Below are positions 7,857 to 17,800 of a stretch of 64,000 nucleotides of DNA, piece after piece; position 1 is the stretch's first letter; each line of letters starts with the position of its first letter. The notes under the pieces were generated by a model. That model was not told the DNA's origin, did no database searches, and saw nothing but the letters and a program-made list of their open reading frames with translations. The translations under genes were made by a program, and so were the position numbers. The stretch comes from Nitrospirota bacterium (GTDB taxonomy: Bacteria > Nitrospirota > Nitrospiria > Nitrospirales > Nitrospiraceae). The stretch covers positions 62,001 through 126,000 of the forward strand of contig JAUXVD010000011.1 of the NCBI GenBank assembly GCA_030684575.1, given 5' to 3'.

Positions 7857-7867
7857 TCTCCTTCGAA

Positions 7868-9971
<2,104 letters not shown>

Positions 9972-15547: not shown

Positions 15548-15649
15548 AGCCATGGCCTTACCGGAACGGAGGTTGATGCGTCAAGCTGAGCCTGGTTGAT
15601 AATCAATCCGTCCGTCCTGCATACTATGCACTCTAATTCGGAGGATGGA

Positions 15650-15889
15650 ATGCACGACCTGACCTGTCTAATTAAGGGCTGCCAAACGAGAGTCTACGCC
15701 CCAGCCGGCACCCACAGCATCTGCCGGGAACACTTTCTTGCCTATCTCACCTGGCGCCGCCGCAAAGGTCCGCAGATGTTTATGAAGTATGCCGGGATGA
15801 CGATGGAAGAACGAGACCCCCTCGTCGCCGAATGGGCCAACACCATCCGAGTAGAAGAAGCTCCAGAAGCATCATTGCCAAAGTCCTGA
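15650..15889 (+). CDS. small Cys-containing protein, possible zinc binder
   Basis: A 79-residue protein starting at an ATG 5 nt after GGAGG; earlier in-frame starts lack a ribosome-binding site. The N-terminus holds C-x4-C ('CLIKGC') and, 15 residues on, C-x2-H ('ICREH'), which could form one zinc site. A basic stretch 'TWRRRKG' follows. No known family was recognised. Confidence 0.6.
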   Translation: MHDLTCLIKGCQTRVYAPAGTHSICREHFLAYLTWRRRKGPQMFMKYAGMTMEERDPLVAEWANTIRVEEAPEASLPKS

Positions 15890-16041: not shown

Positions 16042-16440
16042 ATGCCACCTGATGCACCGACTTCACAGCCGTCCGCAAAAGACCGTCGCGCGTATTTTCG
16101 CATCACCGTCGTCTTGCCCATCAGCATTCAGGCCGAAACGGACAGAACAGAGGGTGCGCTCATAGAGAAGTCGGTCAACATTAGCGGCGGGGGTCTTGGC
16201 GTGACCGTGAACGAGGTCTACAAGCCGGACGAAATTCTGTCACTCACGCTGATTCTGCCAGATAAAGTCATCTTCAAAGCCTACGCAGAAGTGTTGCGGC
16301 TAGAGCCCCTCCCCTATCAGGCCGATACCTACCGCCTACATACCCGCTTCGTCAGAATGACCACACAGGACCAGGAATTACTGATCAGACACATCATGCG
16401 CTTCCAACGCGACCACCTAGAACAACACTATTCCGCATAA
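16042..16440 (+). CDS. PilZ-domain protein (c-di-GMP receptor)
   Basis: A 132-residue single-domain PilZ protein. The c-di-GMP-binding elements are present: 'RRAYFR' (RxxxR) near residue 14 and 'NISGGGLG' (D/NxSxxG) near residue 50, followed by the beta-barrel. It would bind c-di-GMP and act on an unknown partner, for example in motility or polysaccharide secretion. A second c-di-GMP-related gene (HD-GYP, 42262-42963) is in the window, but nothing links them directly. The ATG lies just behind an extended -10. Confidence 0.88.
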   Translation: MPPDAPTSQPSAKDRRAYFRITVVLPISIQAETDRTEGALIEKSVNISGGGLGVTVNEVYKPDEILSLTLILPDKVIFKAYAEVLRLEPLPYQADTYRLHTRFVRMTTQDQELLIRHIMRFQRDHLEQHYSA

Positions 16441-16678
16441 TACGGACAACGCCCACGCTCATTCAGACAGGGCAACACCATCCGCATTGGAGAAGATCCA
16501 ACCGCTTCAGCGCCAAAAGCCTAGCGCCCCGCGCATCACGGAGGAGCACGACTCCTGCTACGTTATTCCTACCTATCCCCGTTATCATCCCTAACGTGTT
16601 GGTATGCGGCGGGCCAGCACGGCCAATTGCAATGCAGGACGCTGGCGACCTGTCCACACCACCTGTGGTGAGCCCACA

Positions 16679-16993
16679 TCATGGTGCAACGCCCCCAAGT
16701 GCCCAAGCCGTGAATGCAAAAGCAGTGGGAAAACAAGGCACTAAAAGTACGACACAGATGGCGACCGTCACGGCCACACGTTTGAAAGTTCTGGCCGGAT
16801 GAAGTATCAGCAATAGCGGCCAGACGAGCCACGCCCAAAACATTAGCAGCCACCAACTTCCTGGGATGAAGTCTAAGTCGGCATAGAAAACGCCGAGCCA
16901 TAACAACAGGACAATAAGCGCGTGCACGATTGCTGCGACGGCTAGTACACGGAATTGGTGGAGCACTGGGTCAAAAACGGCTACGGCGTTCAT
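16679..16993 (-). CDS. small membrane protein, possibly a gene-cassette ORF
   Basis: A 104-residue protein with three hydrophobic helices ('LAVAAIVHALIVLLLWLGVFY', 'WWLLMFWAWLVWPLLLIL', 'VAVTVAICVVLLVPCF'). No family recognised. The ATG at 16993 comes 11 nt after GTTAGGC (17005-17011), the arrangement seen at the start of integron gene cassettes; an alternative ATG at 17020 lies before that site. Its composition is Trp/Leu/Val-rich, unlike the neighbouring genes. Confidence 0.5.
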   Translation of the reverse strand: MNAVAVFDPVLHQFRVLAVAAIVHALIVLLLWLGVFYADLDFIPGSWWLLMFWAWLVWPLLLILHPARTFKRVAVTVAICVVLLVPCFPTAFAFTAWALGGVAP

Positions 16994-17004
16994 TTCTTGA
17001 TGTG

Positions 17005-17071
17005 GCCTAACGTTTGACATGAGTCGCAGGCGGCAGGCACAACCCGTTGACTGTCCGCTTGATTGAAAGGC
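17005..17071 (-). other. attC-like recombination site remnant
   Basis: Read on the minus strand: GCCTTTC (a damaged R'' box), TCAAGCGGAC (L''-like), GTCAACGGGTTGTGCCTG, a partly complementary CTGCCGCCTGCGA, and ATGTCAAACGTTAGGC ending in a perfect GTTRRRY core. Size (67 bp) and order fit an integron attC site; the R'' box lacks its AAC. No integrase gene is in the window. Confidence 0.35.
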
Positions 17072-17200
17072 TACCCCCTTCGAGCGATCCTTCCCATTCC
17101 CCCACTCCATAAATGGGGCAGAGAGGGTTGTCACTCAACTGCGCCCGTCCACCTCGCACATTCTGATGTGGGGGGTGCGGGAGCAAGAGGGACACCCCCT

Positions 17201-17593
17201 CTACCCCATGACCGCACTTCCATGATGATGGATCAGCAACCACTCATCCCCGATCCGCTCGAAGAGATTCGTGGCCAAGACCTGCGCCTGCTGCGGTTCA
17301 TCAGCTTGATGAGTGGTGATGTTCTCCACGCAAACGACCCAGGCCATATCGCCCGCCACCTGGACCGTCACGTCGGTCAGCTCGAACGTCATGGAAAACG
17401 TATTATTGAAGATCAGGACCCATGAGTCGCGCACGGCAGGCCAGTCCGACCGCAATGACCAGCCCGGATGGATGCAGGTCACATATTCCTGATGCGCCCA
17501 CACCTTATCCATCTCGGCAATGTCGAGATTGCCGAACGCGGCATAGAAGGCATGGTTCGCTTTATTCACTTCATCGATGCGTTGCTCCAGCAT
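17201..17593 (-). CDS. SnoaL/NTF2-like fold protein
   Basis: A 130-residue protein with the small cone-like alpha+beta NTF2 pattern: an N-terminal helix pair ('INKANHAFYAAFGNLDIAEMDKVWA' type), 'CIHPGWSL' and the C-terminal strands 'VATNLFERIGDEWLLIHHHGS'. Members include hydrolases, isomerases and binding proteins, so the function is open. The ATG at 17593 is chosen because GGAG lies about 8 nt upstream. It stands alone on the minus strand. Confidence 0.75.
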   Translation of the reverse strand: MLEQRIDEVNKANHAFYAAFGNLDIAEMDKVWAHQEYVTCIHPGWSLRSDWPAVRDSWVLIFNNTFSMTFELTDVTVQVAGDMAWVVCVENITTHQADEPQQAQVLATNLFERIGDEWLLIHHHGSAVMG

Positions 17594-17681
17594 GCAGGGC
17601 TCCTTAGCTGAAAAATGAGCCGTATCATACTGCAATCACCGTGAGAAGGGCGAGAGGGGCGGAACGGGCCCAATCTGAGCA

Positions 17682-17800
17682 GGCTGCTCAAAAAGGCCGT
17701 CAGCAAGGCCGCAGCGAGCGAAGGCCCGAGGCGTACCCTTTAGGGTACGTTGAGGGCCTGAACGATGCGAGAACGAAGCTGGCGGGATTTTTCAGCAGCC
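17682..17800 (+). repeat. ~120-bp long-palindrome repeat, copy 5
   Basis: Outer arms GGCTGCT and AGCAGCC. The core CGAGGCGTACCC...GGGTACGTTGAG is flanked by AGGCC and GGCCT, which pair. It ends 2 nt from the stop codon of the minus-strand transporter gene. Confidence 0.85.

Follow-up and report, generated by a model that had tools for sequence, protein, structure and literature searches.

The locus and its genes

Between two genes of a Nitrospira chromosome, one encoding a SnoaL/NTF2-like protein (17201–17593, minus strand; Pfam SnoaL_3, 108.8 bits) and the other a PilZ-domain protein (16042–16440, plus strand; Pfam PilZ, 47.9 bits), lies a 104-amino-acid open reading frame (ORF; P0001, 16679–16993, minus strand) that is a candidate for the gene of an integron cassette. 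All positions are those of the window, the whole stretch of 64 kb that was analysed (G000:C11:62001-126000), which belongs to a genome of 3.79 Mb. The NTF2-like gene, on the upstream side of the ORF, is conserved, being at least 90% identical in 25 of the 32 genomes of the genus, its own included. On the downstream side, the PilZ gene is present in 12 of these genomes, and a conserved gene for a 97-amino-acid protein (15596–15889, plus strand), for which a Pfam search gave no match, is present in 29. Behind the NTF2-like gene follows a left chromosomal flank with short repeats (17081–17200, minus strand). A repeat at 17134–17190 matches four other places in the same genome, and another at 17679–17797 has further copies in several of the relatives' loci.

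No integrase is encoded within the 64-kb window, and a blastn search of 16450–17150 against plasmids gave no match. A promoter and terminator scan found none, which carries no information, as 0.7 and 1.3 were expected by chance. With gathering thresholds, an Rfam scan of the window returned only a TPP riboswitch (7861–7963, 70.2 bits), and an Rfam scan of 16300–17300 by E-value gave no match; the ORF downstream of the riboswitch (7968–9971) resembles thiC.

The original prediction described a lone, decayed integron gene cassette, in which an attC-like site on the minus strand is followed after 11 nt by the ATG of a small three-helix protein. The ATG is found at 16993, 11 nt after the core of this site (site 1 hereafter), and opens the 104-codon frame, which ends with a stop codon at 16681–16679 and lies between two cores spaced 416 bp apart. 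The protein is hydrophobic, and an AF2 model computed from the single sequence places helices at residues 4–39, 46–63 and 70–102, in agreement with the predicted three helices, at low confidence (mean pLDDT 66); it seems to say little beyond the presence of hydrophobic helices. Outside its own genome, the protein has no match in Pfam, NCBIfam, the contigs of close relatives, a set of 61 genomes, plasmids, viral contigs, phages, PHROGs or PADLOC: among the 61 genomes the ORF occurs in one, its own, and in none of the 60 related ones, and it is thus not the conserved small gene that would have spoken against a cassette. The ORF is likely, albeit unproven, to be coding.

A second short ORF of 41 codons (16463–16588, minus strand) had been proposed as a Nudix-like cassette gene. 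This assignment had to be abandoned: the ORF has no match in Pfam, NCBIfam or plasmids, it aligns, with insertions and deletions that break its frame, to relatives and to the spacer of one of them (G020), and it corresponds to the antisense tail of the 97-amino-acid gene and the chromosomal spacer 3' of it. Its resemblance to Nudix hydrolases is, to judge from these alignments, accidental. Partial copies of the 97-amino-acid gene lie beside cassettes in several relatives. A GTTAG at the tail of this gene was considered as the core of an insertion hot spot and dropped, since in the copies listed it is mostly the stop codon, TAA or TAG, plus one base; the full copy in the window ends in TGA.

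The two borders and the same spacer in relatives

Site 1 (17005–17076, minus strand) contains ATGTCAAACGTTAGGC, which ends at 17005 on the minus strand, and its R' is GTTAGGC (17005–17011), a full fit to GTTRRRY. Such a core is by itself uninformative because it is as frequent in the window as expected (84 heptamers observed against 85.8); AACGTTAGGC has one exact occurrence in the 64 kb. A pattern-and-fold scan for attC sites, tried first, found good sites and was too strict for eroded ones, and covariance models were built for this reason. The same scan found no attC at an Alteromonas plasmid locus where an integrase is present (L043), which was used as background for a separate arm-and-pairing score. 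Model R1 was trained on 23 attC sites, which came from plasmid-borne class 1 integrons, from three MAG loci that contain an integrase and from a Gemmatirosa array, and model R2 on 89 attC sites, none of them from the window. When R1 was run on 14 loci that hold an integrase or what is left of one, it gave 25 matches up to an E-value of 1, 4 of which were training sites; every one of the 25 lies downstream of the integrase and shares its strand.

Under both models, which are of the kind that had been proposed as a check on the predicted site, site 1 is the best attC match in the window. R1 ranks 17005–17074 first with 18.9 bits (E-value 0.033), and R2 gives 17005–17076 on the minus strand as the top match in the 64 kb with 25.4 bits (E-value 4.8e-4), the runner-up scoring 10.6 bits; these E-values are rough by the covariance-model tool's own statement. 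By the arm-and-pairing score, site 1 comes first among 444 candidates and exceeds the 99.9th percentile of a background of 773 candidates. The last 19 bases of site 1 (CTCATGTCAAACGTTAGGC) recur unchanged at the end of the attC at C14:1460-1537 (62.4 bits), an intact site in this genome; of these bases, the first 17 are also present in a plasmid attC beside aac(6')-Ib.

The R'' of site 1 was predicted to be damaged, and in the model alignment it indeed reads GGGTAGC, which fails the consensus RYYYAAC; site 1 would therefore be a relic rather than a working member of the attC class. The substrate of the integron integrase is the hairpin that the bottom strand of attC forms. Folded as single-stranded DNA, the bottom strand of site 1 forms a 10-bp stem with one bulged base, at a z-score of -0.85, and 43 of 200 shuffled sequences fold at least as well; the z-score of the intact C14 site is -6.78. 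Site 1 thus appears to be an attC by descent that is probably no longer working.

The second border (site 2; 16589–16672, minus strand) is presumed to hold the remains of the cassette's own attC, of which only the right end with the core GTTAGGG (16589–16595) is recognisable. As had been predicted, CACGTTAGGG lies 416 bp beyond the core of site 1, with its core at 16595–16589, and departs from GTTRRRY in the last base. Taken alone, site 2 makes a weak attC border: in the 64-kb window it has no match to R1 or R2, it has no stable fold, and it ranks fifth of the 444 candidates by the arm-and-pairing score. Support for its being a border came from the comparison of the locus in 13 relatives (14 loci). 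Homology of the right flank with one of them, G031, begins at ACGTTAG, which is the R' of a 47.1-bit attC in that genome, and the attC of another, G014, lies 149 bp from the PilZ stop codon, the GTTAGGG of the window lying 148 bp from it. Because of this start of homology and this distance, we accept site 2 as a former R' despite the lack of a model match.

None of the alignments to the loci of the 13 relatives spans 16602–17079. On the other side, the left flank aligns with G021 up to 17098 (94%) and with G027 up to 17081 (74%). The left border thus seems the weaker of the two, as it depends on one relative at 74% identity, the alignment with G021 ending at 17098 and the flank holding short repeats.

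Other cassettes are kept at the same locus in some of these relatives. Five of the 13 (G002, G009, G014, G026 and G031) carry attC there, seven sites in total and all in the orientation of the window site, intact sites being among them. In G002, an ORF ends at the attC; in G026, one attC is preceded by two genes that resemble BrnT and CopG, neither of them reaching its Pfam cut-off, and the second gene ends inside that attC; and in G014 and G031, an ORF with a GFA domain stands before the attC. In G009 and G014, the locus is split between contigs, with one side on each. The other eight relatives have no attC at the locus up to an E-value of 5, the contig of one of them (G012) ending within the interval. 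G015 and G020, which gave no attC match, show the NTF2-like and 97-amino-acid genes convergent with about 80 bp between them, and the 97-amino-acid gene of G015 has an internal stop. Genes for a ParE-like toxin and an addiction-module antitoxin adjoin the NTF2-like gene at four loci of relatives (L106 3055–3574, L108 4343–4862, L111 5522–6041 and L115 3069–3588; the Pfam assignment was made for the L106 pair only), and they are absent at the corresponding place in the window. At this one locus, stages from a cassette with a good attC to an empty spacer are seen, and it lends itself to tests of how cassettes are gained, kept and eroded where no integrase is resident.

Integron material in Nitrospira

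The genome under study has other attC sites, at C14:1460, C8:124258, C4:3751, C1:330 and C8:644650, and no integrase over the family cut-off. A decayed integron is found in the same genome (L018 9928–10610, corresponding to G000:C8:644027-644709), with a C-terminal integrase remnant (C8:644153-644287) followed by GTTAGGC, a small ORF and the attC at C8:644650. Within the genus, a full-length integron integrase over the family cut-off is encoded in 2 of the 32 genomes, some of which are incomplete, and the congener G019 carries an integrase-bearing contig (C10). At the integrase-bearing loci L024–L033 and L035, which come from Nitrospira and other phyla, attC matches follow the integrase on its downstream side and have its orientation.

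A search of the 32 genomes with R2 at an E-value of 0.01 returned at least 130 attC in at least 26 of them, 14 of the 130 being R2 training sites; with 130 candidates scored per genome, sites can escape the search, as did the window site and C8:644650. Applied to 29 genomes of the same order that do not belong to the genus, it gave at least 16 attC in at least 8 genomes. Grouped at a distance of 4 kb, the 130 attC form 106 loci, and 88 of these hold a single site, a number inflated by contig ends and missed sites. Among 20 of the stronger attC, which were not chosen at random, 15 have an ORF end at the attC equalled by at most 10% of control positions and 5 do not; a second attC at an E-value of 0.01 lies near 4 of the 20.

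We also searched the 32 Nitrospira genomes, and these only, with an attI-like query, the 176 bp that follow the G016 integrase, and obtained 89 matches in 28 genomes. Twenty-nine of them stop short of query position 166, are mostly short 5' pieces and were left out; the 60 that reach the core are distributed over 25 genomes. The genome under study has six attI-like matches (C8:121892, C4:2991, C4:9413, C14:648, C19:29465 and C8:644306), none on the window contig, C11. Of the 60 sites, 25 have an attC on their own strand not more than 3 kb downstream; 7 have one upstream and none has one on the opposite strand. Conversely, 27 of the 130 attC have an attI-like site upstream, and for most attI-like sites and most attC no partner was seen. 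Integrase sequence was found at 7 of the 63 loci tested, as the intact gene of G016 and as pieces in six others, the piece in L065 not being near its attI-like site. This directional pairing of attI-like sites and attC supports the existence of small integron units that would lack the enzyme, and these may be decayed integrons or attI-cassette units that moved as such. In this genus of nitrifying bacteria, attC are widespread, attI-like sites are too, and a full-length integrase was found in 2 of the 32 genomes.

Origin of the locus and comparison with known systems

Taken together, these results make it quite probable that an integron gene cassette has left its relic in this stretch, between conserved genes of a Nitrospira chromosome. 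One or more cassettes would have been placed by an integron integrase into the spacer that separates the NTF2-like gene from the convergent 97-amino-acid gene. Mutations would later have degraded the first attC in its R'' and its arms, and only the right half of the second would have been kept; what stood between the NTF2-like gene and site 1 was probably deleted. What remains would be an eroded attC, the ORF of a membrane-protein-like product and a right border. Such a unit should now be immobile, and its ORF, if expressed, would rely on read-through from the NTF2-like gene. The compact order of core, 11 nt, ATG, ORF, stop and second core favours this reading, and the decayed cassette without integrase that had been predicted finds further support in the 19 terminal bases that the eroded site shares with the intact C14 site, in the absence of an integrase from the window and in the integrase remnant present elsewhere in the genome. 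Of the epithet lone, a part is lost, traces of two attC-type borders being visible and the spacer of some relatives holding cassettes of its own. Against a cassette stand the misfit of R'', the ordinary hairpin of site 1, the unmatched and unfolded site 2, the weak left border, the unproven coding status of the ORF and the eight relatives without attC.

Three other explanations have to be weighed against this one. A single cassette could have entered the chromosome directly at a non-classical site of the attG type, through the action of an integrase encoded elsewhere or formerly present, without ever having been part of an array. The predominance of single attC loci in the genus and the rarity of the full-length integrase there agree with such a history, and insertion at attG is described for other bacteria, as far as the available part of the source goes (PMC12444791). 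We nevertheless hold it to be unlikely, as the 5' border has attC arms in addition to a core, a sign that another cassette came before it, and several of the single cassettes known from the genus are instead preceded by an attI-like site. The attC relic could also be real and the 104-amino-acid ORF a chance open frame in non-coding filler. The ORF has no relative in any search, its GC3 of 0.55 is below the 0.63–0.73 of six neighbouring genes in the window, and a longer frame of 151 amino acids, starting with a GTG at 17134, passes through the attC of site 1. However, the ORF is long and hydrophobic, with three predicted helices, it starts just after a core, and its stop adjoins the presumed second attC, as is usual in cassettes; we therefore regard a chance frame as rather improbable. 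That core-like heptamers and a spurious ORF came together without any integron history would suit the expected frequency of GTTRRRY, the unremarkable site 2 and the ordinary fold of site 1, yet it is very hard to reconcile with the scores and rank of site 1 (the R2 score already makes chance unlikely), its match to the C14 site and the attC at the same locus in 5 of the 13 relatives.

With the cassette relic as the preferred reading of the window, we tentatively suggest for the genus a picture that we put forward as one possibility. Rather than as one array, integron material in Nitrospira may exist as many small dispersed units that lack their own integrase and in which an attI-like site, or else a bare border, is usually joined by a single cassette and a single attC. 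A rare or passing IntI would have spread these units and filled them in trans, and erosion would have followed. The spacer between the NTF2-like and 97-amino-acid genes would be a recurrent station, and the window would show its last stage. Most of these loci would escape a survey that asks for an integrase or for two attC close together.

The closest known structures are CALIN, clusters of attC without integrase, which the window resembles in its attC-type site, its small ORF between cores and the lack of an adjacent integrase. As now reported, a CALIN has at least two attC and no integrase near (PMC9024848), whereas the window has one model match, a recognisable and eroded attC. It is not a complete integron, with intI and attI, either: the genome has no integrase over the cut-off and C11 no attI-like match. 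In the accessible text of the IntegronFinder 2.0 paper, 2 CALIN are listed for the phylum Nitrospira, both in N. inopinata, and single-attC CALIN are said to be possible true positives (PMC9024848). The origins proposed for CALIN, in the part of that work available, include off-target insertion and the loss of intI (PMC8618304). For dispersed single cassettes in Nitrospira, we found no description in the open-licence literature, judged by titles and the openings of abstracts.

Two systems from other phyla come close, according to the excerpts available. In Xanthomonas, CALIN are found at recurrent chromosomal loci and attG is mentioned (PMC12444791); the likeness lies in cassettes away from intI at loci common to several species, the integrase often being inactivated there. 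A paper on attG also appears among the accessible references of PMC11023631. In Treponema, the integrase is transcribed toward attI and integron remnants without intI exist (PMC3607928). The same atypical layout is seen in the integrase-bearing loci compared here, and the remnants are alike in that attC and cassettes are left after the loss of the integrase, as far as the excerpt tells; they differ in occupying one chromosomal location, in contrast to the dispersed single sites of Nitrospira. Measured against these systems, the window is a real, eroded relic of a known kind, and it is the genus-wide pattern that deserves more attention than the window itself.
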